This document shows, piece after piece, positions 56,956 through 62,629 of a stretch of 64,000 nucleotides of DNA. The stretch lies in NCBI GenBank assembly GCA_021161465.1, contig JAGHAM010000012.1, positions 1 to 64,000 on the forward strand, in the 5' to 3' direction. The notes under the pieces were generated by a model that saw nothing but the letters and a program-made list of their open reading frames with translations, had not been told where the DNA came from and ran no database searches. This DNA is from Candidatus Iainarchaeum sp. Lineage in GTDB: Archaea; B1Sed10-29; WALL01; JAGHAM01. Both the position numbers and the translations under genes were made by a program. Positions within the stretch are counted from its first letter, which is position 1; every line of letters begins with the position of its first letter.

Positions 56956-57612
56956 ATGCCTGAGAAGCCAAAGATACTTGAAGCGGTTTCCGAGATGATA
57001 GCCCAGGGGTTATCAGACGAGGAAATAATAGAAAACCTGAGGTCTGTTGGCCTTAGCGATGACCAGATAAAGAAAATAATGGAAGCTGCCAACAAGGATG
57101 TTTATGCCAGGTTTAAAAGGGATATGGGCAAGTTCCTGGAAGAGCGGCTAAAGAAGAATGCTCCCATGATTGAGAAGATAGTTGATGATTATCTTGAGAG
57201 GAAGAGGGACGATATCAAGAAGGACCTAAGCAGGGAGTCCCAGGAGATAGTTGGTGAGTTAGCTAAAGAAGTGAATGAAAAGACGCGGGACATGGAGCTA
57301 ACTGTTAAGAAAATTAGGGAAGAGAACCTGCAGATGAGGAAGAGCCAGCAGCTTAACCGGTCAGATATAGACTTATTGCTTAAAGGACCGTTCAAGCTCA
57401 GGATGGCAATTTCTGTGACGTCTTTGCTTATTGCAATTATTGTTGTTGGCTTTGACATATTCTATATGCTCCCGGGCGTCTCAAGCAGGTTAGCGGCTTC
57501 GGATCTTACAGGTGCTGCAGTTGAGGCGATAATCGCCACAGCACTCATTGGCTTCTCCATATCTGCACTGGCTGTATGTGTTTATTTCAGCGGAAGACCA
57601 GGGAGAGGATGA
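56956..57612 (+). CDS. Coiled-coil membrane protein, family not recognised
   Basis: 218 residues. Residues 1-50 form a small helical domain of UBA-like pattern (AVSEMIAQGLSDEEIIENLR, SVGLSDDQIKKIMEA). A long charged coiled coil follows (about 55-135), then two membrane spans near 150-170 and 185-210 (MAISVTSLLIAIIVVGFDIF, AIIATALIGFSISALAVCVY). The stop overlaps the Sua5 start (ATGATGA). The combination suggests a membrane-tethered scaffold; this is a guess. Confidence 0.6.
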   Translation: MPEKPKILEAVSEMIAQGLSDEEIIENLRSVGLSDDQIKKIMEAANKDVYARFKRDMGKFLEERLKKNAPMIEKIVDDYLERKRDDIKKDLSRESQEIVGELAKEVNEKTRDMELTVKKIREENLQMRKSQQLNRSDIDLLLKGPFKLRMAISVTSLLIAIIVVGFDIFYMLPGVSSRLAASDLTGAAVEAIIATALIGFSISALAVCVYFSGRPGRG

Positions 57613-58226
57613 TGGAGCTTGTAAGCGTTGCTGTTGATGGCGAAGACGACATACTCAAAAAGGCAGTGGAAACCTTAAACATAGGCAAAGTTATAGTTTA
57701 CCCAACTGATACTGTTTATGGTGTTGGAGCGGATGCAACCAGTGAGAAAGCCGTTGGACAGGTTTTTGAACTTAAGGGCAAGCCCAGTGGCGAGCCAATA
57801 AGCGTATTGGTCTCCGATTTCGCTATGCTTGAGGAATATGCGCGCCTGGACACCAAACAGCTGGATTTGGCACGTGAGTTGCTACCAGGCAGGGTTACTG
57901 TGGTTCTTGATGCCAAAGGCCTTGCTAAGAACCTTTCCATGGATGGCTCAATAGGATTCCGGATTCCAGTGAGCCCCTTTTGCATAAGTTTGGTTGAGGA
58001 GTTTGGAAAGCCAATCACAACCACAAGCGCGAACCCTTCAGGCAAGAGCCCCGCCTCTTCTATTGAGGTAGCAGTAAGGTACTTCGGCGACAGGGTAGCA
58101 CTCTACATAGACTATGGAGAGCAGCTTTTCTCGCCCTCGACCGTGGTTGACCTGCGTGAAAAACCAAAAATACTGCGCGAAGGCTCTGATATCGGCAGGG
58201 TAAAACAGGTCTTAGGTTCACTCTAG
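57609..58226 (+). CDS. sua5: Threonylcarbamoyl-AMP synthase (Sua5/YrdC family)
   Basis: 205 residues: KVIVYPTDTVYGVGADATSE, VFELKGKPSGEPISVLVSDF, LLPGRVTVVLDAKG, SIGFRIPVSPFCISLVEEFG and TTSANPSGKSPASSI. It makes threonylcarbamoyl-AMP for t6A37 of tRNA. It is a YrdC-domain-only form without the Sua5 C-terminal domain. GGGAGAGG precedes ATG 57609; ATG 57612 is an alternative. The end overlaps the convergent ATPase gene by 9 bases. Confidence 0.93.
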   Translation: MMELVSVAVDGEDDILKKAVETLNIGKVIVYPTDTVYGVGADATSEKAVGQVFELKGKPSGEPISVLVSDFAMLEEYARLDTKQLDLARELLPGRVTVVLDAKGLAKNLSMDGSIGFRIPVSPFCISLVEEFGKPITTTSANPSGKSPASSIEVAVRYFGDRVALYIDYGEQLFSPSTVVDLREKPKILREGSDIGRVKQVLGSL

Positions 58227-59438
58227 AAACCACTCGTGTGCTGGTTTAATTGTTATACCTTCTATTTCTGCTCTCGCGGACCTAGAGAGAAGCACTCCAG
58301 AGCCAGCCCCAAACTTTTTCATAAATACTCTCAACGGTTTTAGGTCTTTCTTTGAGATTTCCTTCTTAAACTTGACTTCCACAGGTAGGGGTTTTTCTTC
58401 TTTTATCACAAAGTCAACCTCCTTGCCTGTTGATGTTCTCCAAAAAAATTTAATTCTAGGGTCAAGTGCAACTGAGTTTTCAACATTTTTTGGAATACTC
58501 TGCGTGGTCCCAAGTAATGAGAAACAGGGGGCCGCAGGATATGCTTTTTTCAACTTCCTTTCAGATGCTATGAAACTCCCTGAGTAATTGTATACCTTCT
58601 TTATCATATTGGAGTAAGACAGATACCGTACATATCTTTCAACAGTTCGTTCGTTTAGAGAGAAGCTTTTAGCTATGCTCTTGTATTCCAGAAGCATTCC
58701 CGGGTTCTCTACTATTGCCATAAATATCGTTCTGAGCTTTTCGGGGTTGTCTATTGCAAATAATGTTGGTATATCTCCAAGAATCACCTTATTAACTATA
58801 CTTTCTAGGTACAGGCGGCTGAATTCATCATCTTCATTGACTATCTCTATGAAATTTCTCTTAAGGTAGTAAAGGAATTCAGATTCCAATTCTGAAGGGA
58901 ACATTTTTGGATTTTTGGTCAAGTGCTCTTTATCTCTAAACTCAAGGAATTCCTTGAAAGATAATATTGGAAGCTCAAGTGTTATTATCCTACCAGCTAG
59001 TGATTCCTTTGATTCCCTTATAAACAGTGATTGGGAACCAGAAACCACAAATTTTAGGTTAGGGTATGTATCATAGTATATCTTTATCTGGGTTGCCCAT
59101 TCTCTGAGTTTTTGGATTTCGTCAAGGAATAGATAAACTCTATCCTTTCCCAGGTCTACACCTGTTGTTCCTAAGTATTCTGTGATTACTTCTTCAAGAC
59201 TATTCACGGATTCGTCGAATGTGAAGTACAGTACGTTCCTCCTTGGGACTCCTTTGTCAATTAGGTGGTCCATGAGTTGCTGCATGAGGACTGTTTTTCC
59301 AGTTCTCCTCAAACCAACAATCCCAACTATAGGCCGTTTTTCAAGAAATTTGACAAGTCTCTGGAATAATACTCTTTTCTTTTCATATCCATATTTGAAT
59401 CCTGGTTTCCAGTGCTTATTTATGATGTCAAGTTTCAT
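58218..59438 (-). CDS. AAA ATPase with DUF4143 C-terminal domain
   Basis: 406 residues: Walker A IVGLRRTGKTVLMQQ, Walker B VYLFLDEIQKLREWATQIKI, sensor-like FVVSGSQSLFIRESKESLAG, GRIITLELPILSFKEFLEF, and a C-terminal part with FFWRTSTGKEVDFVIKEEK and PVEVKFKKEISKKDLKPL, a PD-(D/E)XK-like core. It is related in type to the ATPase at 33.65 kb but not a close copy. AT-rich, next to the cassette array, so probably part of a mobile region. Confidence 0.85.
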   Translation of the reverse strand: MKLDIINKHWKPGFKYGYEKKRVLFQRLVKFLEKRPIVGIVGLRRTGKTVLMQQLMDHLIDKGVPRRNVLYFTFDESVNSLEEVITEYLGTTGVDLGKDRVYLFLDEIQKLREWATQIKIYYDTYPNLKFVVSGSQSLFIRESKESLAGRIITLELPILSFKEFLEFRDKEHLTKNPKMFPSELESEFLYYLKRNFIEIVNEDDEFSRLYLESIVNKVILGDIPTLFAIDNPEKLRTIFMAIVENPGMLLEYKSIAKSFSLNERTVERYVRYLSYSNMIKKVYNYSGSFIASERKLKKAYPAAPCFSLLGTTQSIPKNVENSVALDPRIKFFWRTSTGKEVDFVIKEEKPLPVEVKFKKEISKKDLKPLRVFMKKFGAGSGVLLSRSARAEIEGITIKPAHEWFLE

Positions 59439-59637
59439 GAATCTTATGTGTTCTTTCTTATTTTTAAATTTAACTACACTACAATGTCATTATTACCATA
59501 AAATAATGATATTATGTTATCATTAGTACAGAATTCAACCCCCCATATTCGTTATGAGGGTTCCCAACTTTTAGTTTAGGCACGAAAACTCAAAAATTTT
59601 CCTTCGGAACCTTGCACTAAATTTTTGCCCTTCGGGA

Positions 59638-59728
59638 ATATAACAGCGATTAAGAGGTTTCGCTCGGTTGCACCTTGCTCCACCCCAATCCTGCTATGCA
59701 GGACTTCGTTAAATCGCAAACGTTAAAT
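59638..59728 (+). other. attC-like site 1
   Basis: Left box ATATAAC (59638-59644), then GCGATT (59646-59651) pairing with AATCGC (59712-59717), with AAGAGG against CTTCGTT and bulged bases. Right box GTTAAAT (59722-59728) fits GTTRRRY. 91 bases. The gap from the AAA ATPase to this site (59439-59637) holds no gene; CAAAAATTT (59591-59599) and AAATTTTTG (59619-59627) form a further palindrome there. Confidence 0.6.
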
Positions 59729-59787
59729 GAAATAAATTTTCAAAAATTAATGATACTTTTATTAACCTTCACTGCTAATTTGTGATT

Positions 59788-60144
59788 ATGAAACCACAAA
59801 TTAAAGCAATTTATATTGCAGTTCAGGATATGGATAGAGCGGTAAAATTCTATGAAGACATTTTTGATGTCAAAGTTTCTTCAAAAGATGAAAGAATGAG
59901 TTCATTTGAGTTTGAGAACATTACCTTCCTTCTTTATAATCCTAAAATTGATAATGAGACAATTTCCAGTGGCAATAATGTTGTTCCAAATATCCAAGTT
60001 CAAGATATTAATAAAATGTTGGAATTAATTAAAAGTAAAAATTGTGAAATTGTCTTGCCATTGGAAAAGATTGGGAAATATCATCTTTTTCAAGCAAAAG
60101 ATACGGAAGGTAATGTTATAGAATTTTACCAGATTCTAGAATAA
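59788..60144 (+). CDS. VOC (glyoxalase/bleomycin-resistance fold) family protein, cassette gene
   Basis: 118 residues from ATG 59788; GTG 59782 is an alternative. The beta-alpha-beta-beta-beta module repeats: IKAIYIAVQDMDRAVKFYED then NVVPNIQVQDINKMLELIKS, ending KDTEGNVIEFYQI with the usual metal-ligand Glu. Members include lyases, dioxygenases and drug-binding proteins; the substrate is unknown. It is AT-rich and bacterial in style, bounded by attC-like sites, as expected for a captured cassette. Confidence 0.85.
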   Translation: MKPQIKAIYIAVQDMDRAVKFYEDIFDVKVSSKDERMSSFEFENITFLLYNPKIDNETISSGNNVVPNIQVQDINKMLELIKSKNCEIVLPLEKIGKYHLFQAKDTEGNVIEFYQILE

Positions 60145-60309
60145 TTTTTGAAAATTTACTCTGTGACTATAAGGTTAAATGGTTTCCTTTCGGAAGAATT
60201 GTTGGAAGTTGTGAAGGGATGTACTTTGTAACATTTTGGGGTCAAATACTTCCATGAATTATTGGCGGCGGAACTCTTCGCCTGCTCTCGCAGACTTGCC
60301 CTTCGGGTC

Positions 60310-60394
60310 TGCTAACAGGCGGATATGTAGCTCGCTTACGCTCGCCCAAATTTACCCTAATGGGCAAACTTCACATATCCCCAAAACGTTAAGC
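60310..60394 (+). other. attC-like site 2
   Basis: Left box TGCTAAC (60310-60316); GGATATGT (60321-60328) pairs exactly with ACATATCC (60373-60380); a bulged C at 60372; inner GCCCA/TGGGC; right box GTTAAGC (60388-60394) fits GTTRRRY. 85 bases. It follows the VOC gene; the rest of the 60145-60448 gap holds no other gene. Confidence 0.68.
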
Positions 60395-60448
60395 AACATA
60401 CTACTCTGCGATTTTGCTGAGAAATAGATTTAAAGGATGGGATAGAAT

Positions 60449-60826
60449 ATGAATATGATGAATAAAGCAGCGATTAAAGAATTTTTGAAACCAGATTGGA
60501 AAAAGATCGTTTTAACTGTATTTCTATTATGGCTTCCTTTTTGTGAGGAGCAAATACCTTTTGGAGGTCATCCAACTTTAGTCTGGTATCGTGTCGTTGA
60601 TAGACTCTTCGGGTTTTTAGCAAAACCTTTATGTTCTATGTTTTATCCCACTGATACTTATTGTTATTTATACTCCGCAGGACCTATTCAAATTTTCCAA
60701 TCACAAATCCCACAATATCACTTATTATTACTCCTAACCTTAATTGTAGTTGAAATTATTAGTGTTTATTTATTCACCTGCTTAATAATCTTCACTTATG
60801 ACAAATTCAGAGCTAAAAAACAATAA
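60449..60826 (+). CDS. Small membrane protein, cassette gene
   Basis: 125 residues from ATG 60449. Two hydrophobic spans, IVLTVFLLWLPFCEEQIPFG (about 21-40) and YHLLLLLTLIVVEIISVYLF (about 90-110), with a Cys-containing loop between (LCSMFYPTDTYCYLYSAGPI). It ends KFRAKKQ. I recognise no family. Small orphan membrane proteins are frequent in integron cassettes. Confidence 0.75.
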   Translation: MNMMNKAAIKEFLKPDWKKIVLTVFLLWLPFCEEQIPFGGHPTLVWYRVVDRLFGFLAKPLCSMFYPTDTYCYLYSAGPIQIFQSQIPQYHLLLLLTLIVVEIISVYLFTCLIIFTYDKFRAKKQ

Positions 60827-60853
60827 TCGCAAAATCGCCTGCGTCATACGATC

Positions 60854-60966
60854 GTCTAACAGCGGATAAAAGGCTTCGCTACGCTCCGCCCAAATTGCCT
60901 TCCTGTCTGCCGTGCTGGGCACGGCACAGGCAGGCGGCAACTTCTTTTATCCCCAAAACGTTATAC
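60854..60966 (+). other. attC-like site 3
   Basis: Left box GTCTAAC (60854-60860) fits RYYYAAC exactly; GGATAAAAG (60864-60872) pairs exactly with CTTTTATCC (60944-60952); a central hairpin TGCCGTGC-TGG-GCACGGCA inside TTGCC/GGCAA; right box GTTATAC (60960-60966), one change from GTTRRRY. 113 bases. It is the best of the three sites. Confidence 0.72.
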
Positions 60967-61195
60967 CAACTATAAGTTAACAGAACCAAGATACCATAGA
61001 TTTTTATATCTTAAGGGTCAAAGATAAAAAATGGGATTTGTTCTTATGGGTAATGACGTAGGCTTCGATGTGTTTCCTACTTCTTGTTGTTAGAGTTTTT
61101 TATGCACATTTAAACGAGTTTTTGAGGTCTTAGTATGAAAGAGGTGAAATTTATGGATAAAAACTTAAGGGGCGATTATCGGTGCCCTTGGCGTA
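60967..61195 (+). other. Intergenic stretch between the cassette array and cysK
   Basis: No supported gene. A short frame from ATG 61153 (MDKNLRGDYRCPWRIGYNW) ends after 19 codons and is out of frame with cysK. GAGGTGAAATTT at 61141 looks like a ribosome-binding site for it. No fourth attC-like site is seen. Confidence 0.5.
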
Positions 61196-62056
61196 TTGGA
61201 TACAATTGGTAATACGCCACTTGTTAGGATAGGAAAAATCTATGCAAAGCTTGAAACAGTCAATCCAACAGGAAGTATAAAAGACAGGATAGCCCTGTAC
61301 ATGACGAGAAAGGCTGAGGAAAGGAACGAGCTGAAACCTGGAGGTAAAATAATAGAGGCGACGAGCGGGAACACAGGTATTTCGTTTGCTATGGTTTCAG
61401 CTATGACAGGTTACAAATTCACAGCAGTGATGCCAGAGTCTATGAGTGTGGAGAGAATTAAGATAATGAAAGCTTTTGGGGCTAGTGTTTTCTTAACACC
61501 AGCCAGTGAGAATATGGGAGGAGCAGTTAAAAAATATGAAGAAATAGCTAAAAGTAATCCAGATGCATGGCTACCAAGACAATTTGAGAATCCGGATAAC
61601 ATAATGGCTCACAAAGAGGGTCTTGGGAGTGAGATTTTAGAACAGATGCAAGGTAACGCAGGTGTCTTTGTTGCTGGAATTGGAACTGGTGGAACCCTCA
61701 TAGGAGTTGCGAAAGCTTTGGAGGAAGCTGGCGTGAACGCTAAAATAGTTGGCATTGAACCTGCCGAGTCACCCATACTTTCAAAAGGATACAGTGGCTT
61801 TCACGGGATACAAGGAATTGGTGAAGGCTTCATACCAAAGCTGGTTGAAGACAACTTAGATTTGATAGATGAAGTCATAACAGTAAGAACAAAGGATGCT
61901 ATCAGGATGACCAGAAGACTTATTAGGACTTATGGACTATTGGTTGGAATAAGCTCTGGGGCTAATGTGTTAGTATCAATGGAGATGGCAAGGCGATTTA
62001 AGAATGTTGTTACGGTACTGCCAGATAGGGGAGAAAGATACCTTAGTTTGTGGTGA
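61196..62056 (+). CDS. cysK: Cysteine synthase family protein (PLP-dependent)
   Basis: 286 residues: DTIGNTPLVRIGKIYAKLET, NPTGSIKDRIALYM (PLP Lys), EATSGNTGISFAMVSAMTGY, GIGTGGTLIGVAKALEEAG, PAESPILSKGYSGFHGIQGI and a final VTVLPDRGERYLSLW. It makes cysteine from O-acetyl- or O-phosphoserine and sulfide. The N-terminus is about 10 residues shorter than usual. The start is TTG 61196 without a clear ribosome-binding site; an upstream ATG (61153) is out of frame, so a frameshift near 61190 is possible. Confidence 0.88.
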   Translation: MDTIGNTPLVRIGKIYAKLETVNPTGSIKDRIALYMTRKAEERNELKPGGKIIEATSGNTGISFAMVSAMTGYKFTAVMPESMSVERIKIMKAFGASVFLTPASENMGGAVKKYEEIAKSNPDAWLPRQFENPDNIMAHKEGLGSEILEQMQGNAGVFVAGIGTGGTLIGVAKALEEAGVNAKIVGIEPAESPILSKGYSGFHGIQGIGEGFIPKLVEDNLDLIDEVITVRTKDAIRMTRRLIRTYGLLVGISSGANVLVSMEMARRFKNVVTVLPDRGERYLSLW

Positions 62057-62098
62057 ATTCTAAAACCCTTTTATTTTTCAACTGTTATAATCTAACCA

Positions 62099-62629
62099 AT
62101 GGTTTACGAGCCGAGAGAAGATTCATATCTGCTTGCAGAAGAGGTTAAAAGGCGCGCCTGGGGTAAAGTCCTTGATATGGGTACGGGTAGTGGTGTCCAG
62201 GCACTTGCAGCAGAGAAAAGCCCGCGAGTGACTGATATCCTGGCAGCAGACGTTGATGAGGAGGCCGTTAACTTTGTCAGTTCAATGCGGATTAACGCCG
62301 TGCAAAGCAACTTATTTGAGAATATAGAAGGCAGATTTGATTTTATAATATTCAACCCACCATATCTGCCAAACCACCCAATGGATGATGTGGTGGCAAT
62401 AGATGGGGGCCCAACTGGTAGGGAAGTTCTTGATAAGTTTCTGGATGAGTGCAAGGAATACCTTTCAGAGCAGGGGGAGATAATCTTTGTCCAGAGTACC
62501 ATAACTGGTATAGAACAAACCAAGAAAAAGCTGGATGAACTTGGCTTTGATTATGAGATAGCAGCAAAGCAGAAAATCCCTTGGGAGGAGCTTGTTGTTT
62601 TCCACTGTCGCCTAAAGCCAGAGTTATAG
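62099..62629 (+). CDS. HemK2/Mtq2-like protein methyltransferase
   Basis: 176 residues: YEPREDSYLLAEEVKRR, VLDMGTGSGVQALAAEKS (SAM site), AADVDEEAVNF, and FDFIIFNPPYLPNHP (NPPY). This is the PrmC-related family that methylates the Gln of the GGQ motif in release factor aRF1. TATA-like CCCTTTTATTTTTC lies about 25 bases upstream, so the ATG at 62099 is probably leaderless. Confidence 0.9.
   Translation: MVYEPREDSYLLAEEVKRRAWGKVLDMGTGSGVQALAAEKSPRVTDILAADVDEEAVNFVSSMRINAVQSNLFENIEGRFDFIIFNPPYLPNHPMDDVVAIDGGPTGREVLDKFLDECKEYLSEQGEIIFVQSTITGIEQTKKKLDELGFDYEIAAKQKIPWEELVVFHCRLKPEL

Follow-up and report, generated by a model that had tools for sequence, protein, structure and literature searches.

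A probable integron-type cassette cluster in the chromosome of a Candidatus Iainarchaeum archaeon and its relation to a family of attC-type sites in archaeal genomes

Introduction

Integrons have so far looked rare in archaea and dependent on an integrase (IntI) with a special domain (PMC9668308). Ghaly et al. (2022) reported integrons or attC clusters without integrase (CALINs) in 75 of 6718 archaeal genomes, and the published archaeal IntIs carry the IntI-specific domain (PMC9668308). In canonical bacterial integrons (IntI1, VCR, class 1 attC) a cassette consists of one ORF and one site; the site has YAAC...GTTR boxes and a stem of inverted repeats, the exchange point is G/TT, and single extrahelical bases set the active strand. 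A further archaeal tyrosine recombinase, XerA (NF040815; PDB 4a8e, 5hxy), is described as the chromosome-dimer resolvase in a review of these enzymes, which names Integron_Int among the related bacterial families (PMC8371274).

The locus studied here lies in the first 64,000 nucleotides of contig JAGHAM010000012.1 (assembly GCA_021161465.1, Candidatus Iainarchaeum sp.); this whole stretch is called the window. Its initial annotation, made from the sequence alone, had proposed integron attC-like sites with two gene cassettes. With the canonical bacterial integrons the sites share the terminal boxes, the inverted-repeat stem, the G/TT exchange point and the plan of one ORF plus one site per cassette. 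The loci of PMC9668308 are alike in being archaeal attC clusters, most of which lack an integrase; their small ORFs generally share one direction, and their sites fold as single strands like bacterial attCs. In contrast to that study, a single conserved site family was found here in 91 of 394 genomes, and the neighbouring recombinases are without the IntI-specific domain. The family may overlap with the attC set of PMC9668308. Unlike the canonical attC, the family has an L stem free of extrahelical bases, one arm with an asymmetric insert (about 18-20 nt) and the conserved elements CGCCCAAATT...AACTTCG, and it obtains no match from a canonical covariance model. The site-adjacent recombinases resemble XerA in matching NF040815 and differ from known XerA in their divergent position beside cassette arrays. 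An account of the site family or of its XerA-like partners was not found in the openly accessible journal papers searched.

Results

Three sites of the same direction were located between and around two small genes, as the annotation had it, with one ORF of the same sense per pair of sites (Table 1). All three have the core boxes YAAC and GTTA and inverted L''/L' stems, while the positions of the outer boxes vary. The fits to the consensus sequences GTTRRRY (right ends of sites 1 and 2) and RYYYAAC (left end of site 3) had been given exactly; the strict consensus is not kept by GTTATAC at the right of site 3 or, in sites 1 and 2, by the left ends. The sequence noted as common to sites 2 and 3, TATCCCCAAAACGTTA, is real. 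In these two sites the L stems are uninterrupted, with no single extrahelical bases, and the asymmetry is a long insert on the L'' arm. The bottom strand folded better than the top strand by 1.0, 3.8 and 4.5 kcal/mol in sites 1, 2 and 3, respectively. The cut is expected at G59722/T59723 in site 1 and at G60388/T60389 in site 2. No Rfam family matched, and a tRNA scan found nothing. A pairing of the left end of site 1 with the right end of site 3 as halves of one resident site (TATAAC/GTTATA) was considered and set aside as weak, its six pairs being little above chance. About 45 bases 5' of site 1 (59587-59637) are conserved with the upstream flanks of sites in G084 (L130:9723-9769) and G040 (L125:6009-6054), an extended site subtype.

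Table 1 Features of the cassette locus, with positions in the window
Feature	Position	Strand	Description
Inserted segment, 3.9 kb	58227-62098		between Sua5/YrdC (57576-58226) and HemK (62099-62629)
attC-type site 1	59638-59728	+	R'' ATATAAC, stem GCGATT/AATCGC, R' GTTAAAT
Gene cassette 1	59723-60388	+	starts at TT after site 1, ends with G of site 2; an R3 site at either end
ORF 1, 118 aa	59788-60144	+	VOC/glyoxalase superfamily; Pfam PF00903, 40.9 bits, above cut-off
attC-type site 2	60310-60394	+	R'' TGCTAAC, stem GGATATGT/ACATATCC, R' GTTAAGC
Gene cassette 2	60389-60960	+	starts at TT after site 2, ends with G of site 3; an R3 site at either end
ORF 2, 125 aa	60449-60826	+	orphan small membrane-type protein
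attC-type site 3	60854-60966	+	R'' GTCTAAC, stem GGATAAAAG/CTTTTATCC, long inner hairpin, R' GTTATAC

With a pattern derived from the window, related sites were detected in four viral contigs and in one contig from Dehalococcoidia, and blastn found a similar half-site on a Klebsiella plasmid (E 2e-5). The covariance model R1 was built from these viral-contig, Dehalococcoidia and Klebsiella sites, mostly those of phage contigs; in the window it listed only the three sites, site 1 weakly (E 0.16), and in other archaeal genomes it yielded lone sites. The canonical model R2, from Shewanella phage integron, class 1 and VCR sites, recovered VCR and class 1 sites outside its training set and matched neither the window sites nor the archaeal arrays. 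Since this sound model misses them, the window sites fall outside the canonical gammaproteobacterial type. The model R3 comprises ten sites, all outside the window, with the order TAACAGCGG, stem, insert, CGCCCAAATT, second stem, AACTTCG, return arm of the stem and ACGTTA; an AAT about ten bases past ACGTTA is common to the ten.

A covariance-model check of the annotated sites, carried out with R3, came out in their favour: the model matched sites 1, 2 and 3 with 52.8 bits (E 2e-11), 56.2 bits (E 2.5e-12) and 78.1 bits (E 4.3e-18), far beyond chance, and gave no fourth match in the 64-kb window at E <= 10. Within the phylum, R3 detected arrays in the genomes G013 and G014. Among the 394 archaeal genomes, the 91 with R3 sites represent 23 % at E <= 0.01 per genome, with about four false genomes expected; the genomes were chosen as relatives and the E-values are rough owing to a short calibration, so the percentage describes this sample. 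Two looser viral-contig patterns had no matches, while a third had, among the matches listed, mostly chance ones in coding DNA. As a check of specificity, R3 kept two contigs in 328 kb of looser-pattern viral contigs.

The fold was examined by covariation in 52 family sites outside the window, taken from 20 regions. All eight pairs of the L stem were changed on both sides, and the whole structure had 228 double-change cells against 75.7 in shuffles (0/500). True partners paired in 86 % of the cells, partners slid by 1-3 columns in 28-42 %; fitting the alignment to the model biases it towards the structure, though hardly to the observed extent. The bottom strand was better folded than the top strand in 60 of 65 family sites (p 1e-10), and 47 of the 52 kept, in the inner stem of the top strand, an A.C that corresponds to a T.G wobble on the bottom strand. 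Energies and wobble pairs together suggest the bottom strand as the folded strand.

The 3.9 kb segment contains an AAA_14/DUF4143 ATPase, the three sites with the two cassettes and CysK. Synteny was compared at the level of family and order; the phylum sample comprises 19 genomes, each about 0.3-1.3 Mb in size. Sua5 and HemK are direct neighbours, or have no more than 0.75 kb between them, in five relatives (G001, G003, G004, G006, G007), and the gap in G001 and G007 contains an unrelated ORF. Because the two genes are near-adjacent in relatives and 3.9 kb apart here, the segment that holds the sites was acquired by an archaeal chromosome. The cassette reading is further supported by the AT-rich composition of the two units and their absence in relatives. 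The contig carries ribosomal protein, proteasome, exosome and further archaeal genes (translations judged by eye), and the genome is a 40-contig assembly of 976 kb, 93 % complete, with a contamination estimate of 0.17 %. The CysK-like frame (61196-62056) has a TTG directly before DTIGNTPLVRI and no good upstream start codon; the gene may be 5'-truncated or start at TTG.

The two cassettes had been annotated as carrying a VOC protein and an orphan membrane protein. The PF00903 match bears out the former, with the nearest archaeal match, in a distant genome, at 38 % identity; the second protein matched no Pfam or NCBIfam family and had no relative in the 18 other genomes of the phylum, in plasmids or in viral contigs. 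The GC content is 28 % in ORF 1, 31 % in ORF 2 and 44 % in the window. Conserved synteny of both small genes in relatives, which would have spoken against cassettes, was not seen; both genes are absent there. A second copy of either cassette was not found.

No tyrosine recombinase was found in the window genome by searches with PF00589 and TIGR02249 (assembly 93 % complete), and R3 gave no further site in the rest of the 976 kb; the genome-wide search proposed with the annotation thus returned neither IntI nor additional attC. Therefore the locus is an attC cluster without integrase. A CALIN has at least two attC sites within 4 kb and no integron integrase nearby; here three R3 sites span 1.33 kb, and the whole genome was free of integrase by PF00589 and TIGR02249. 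The locus fits the published definition (PMC9668308), with the sites called by R3 rather than by the IntegronFinder model. A complete integron, with attI and an IntI that carries the IntI-specific domain, is not present in this genome without tyrosine recombinase. In the same genome (G000, 93 % complete) no protein of the Phage_integrase family was found at all, not even XerA for dimer resolution.

In relatives, the site family forms true cassette arrays. They have one or two ORFs per site, with the ORFs in the sense of the site; in the long arrays L126 (G267) and L133 (G164) a site mostly goes with a single ORF, and almost all ORFs point the same way. The 5' end of each cassette was compared with its own R'' beyond the core in 35 cassettes, the two of the window included. 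Complementary runs between own ends summed to 128 against 28.9 expected (0/20,000 shuffles), and the pairing of ends of the same site gave a sum of runs of only 38. Because the two ends of a cassette are complementary to each other and the sides of the same site hardly are, the cassettes are read as units that close into circles at G/TT. One cassette is common to G267 and G181, with 76.5 % identity over 2.3 kb (cassette 2.2 kb) and different neighbours; the homology starts at TTATACGC, continues to where the site of the cassette ends and is lost outside. The DNA common to L060 and L062 begins exactly at GTT. In the two window cassettes, the run of own-end complementarity beyond the core was 0 in both, and a search of 57.5-62.5 kb for partner ends of the window sites gave no convincing candidate.

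An IntI above the TIGR02249 cut-off was not found in the 394 archaeal genomes. Matches below the cut-off lacked the part of the profile in which the IntI-specific domain lies (positions of about 181-237), and an alignment showed the insert in IntI1 but not in any of the archaeal proteins. The site-adjacent recombinases matched NF040815 (archaeal XerA), most of them above the cut-off; one of them, compared with solved structures, was closest to 4a8e. In a tree, the archaeal recombinases fell outside the well-supported IntI clade, and the site-adjacent ones did not form one clade. Eight genomes (G040, G098, G115, G181, G216, G240, G250, G288) have a site within about 1.2 kb upstream of the XerA-like gene, with a recombinase remnant in place of the gene in G040. 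All eight pairs are divergent, one of four possible arrangements and the layout of intI and its array; the cases were chosen for the proximity of site and recombinase. In G267 and G164, recombinase and array share a strand, with some kilobases between them, and across the sample most arrays and recombinases do not lie next to each other. XerA-like recombinases may act on the family sites. In G115, a tandem duplication of 300 bases (96 %) spans the recombinase-proximal site (L122:10040-10648).

Discussion

On this evidence the locus is very probably a small archaeal integron-type cassette cluster of three sites and two one-gene cassettes, whose own recombinase was lost or never present. Judged from the relatives, a cassette would be circular and consist of one ORF plus one site; a tyrosine recombinase would bind the folded bottom strand of the site and exchange it with another site between the G and the TT of GTTA, single-stranded bottom-strand DNA being the presumed substrate. 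Repeated insertion would build arrays of the order site-ORF-site-ORF-site. The window cassettes may have arrived in this way and then decayed, or may have been moved by a recombinase acting in trans. Because own-end complementarity is absent and the genome has no recombinase, the window copy is probably a relic, an old cluster with shuffled or decayed cassettes. The initial reading as a cassette cluster without integrase is upheld and refined: the sites are non-canonical, the neighbours of the family are XerA-like and not IntI, and the copy at hand is a probable relic.

The sites could alternatively be palindromic repeats, such as MITE-like elements or terminators, which lie between genes by chance. 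Many family members are indeed singletons, long inverted repeats are present at the ends of some (G014, L013), and related sites are antisense to ORFs in Bacteroidota-type phage contigs. Such repeats, however, would not explain a complementarity that joins the two ends of a cassette and not those of a site, common DNA that breaks exactly at G/TT and comprises one ORF and one site, or ordered arrays with one or two ORFs per site. For the family this alternative is already contradicted, and for the window locus we consider it improbable. An import of a canonical bacterial cluster of the IntI type into the archaeon could be suspected from the single family members that occur in a Dehalococcoidia genome and, next to ere(B), on a Klebsiella plasmid, and archaeal integrons have been linked to cross-domain transfer (PMC9668308). 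Against this origin, R2 misses the window sites as well as the archaeal arrays, the family is common in archaea (91/394) and an IntI above cut-off is missing from all 394 genomes, which makes the import very improbable. The 40 contigs of the assembly and the differing GC of the cassettes might also point to misassembly or bacterial contamination of the archaeal bin; with the sites 59.6-61 kb into a contig of archaeal ribosomal, proteasome and exosome genes, both flanks in archaeal synteny with five relatives and contamination estimated at 0.17 %, an artefact is highly improbable.

Beyond the integron-type cluster in the window, it appears moderately likely that archaea own a widespread integron lineage, with a conserved attC family in about a quarter of the sampled genomes and XerA-like integrases that are without the IntI-specific domain and are placed divergently next to an array's first site; the window would hold a relic of this lineage. 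The conserved site family, its frequency and the Xer-like partner look like an undescribed variant, while the window itself is a further case of the known archaeal integron-type loci. If this holds, archaea would ordinarily gain genes by cassette capture as well (the site family being present in 23 % of the sample), the need for an IntI-specific domain in the recombination of folded single-strand sites would become testable, and the origin of integrons from Xer recombinases would be touched.

Some occurrences of the family lie outside archaeal chromosomes. On the Klebsiella plasmid NZ_CP044036.1, a family site (L014:2991-3096, 77 bits) is located just upstream of ere(B) and beside intI1. It was considered as proof of the use of such sites by IntI1, and this was dropped: the attI1 is truncated, and the ORF before the site, labelled AAC(6')-Ib7, resembles by eye the end of a type I restriction subunit. 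Because of these two features the site probably arrived together with the ere(B) fragment, and ere(B) may derive from a genome with this site family. Viral contigs also contain family sites, an array of six in L194:111-2308 and one in L149:107-210; viruses may move these cassettes. In the Bacteroidota-like phage contigs L008-L011, the antisense position of the related sites was seen in all four, the reverse of most archaeal cases, and the stems of these sites are without the asymmetric insert.
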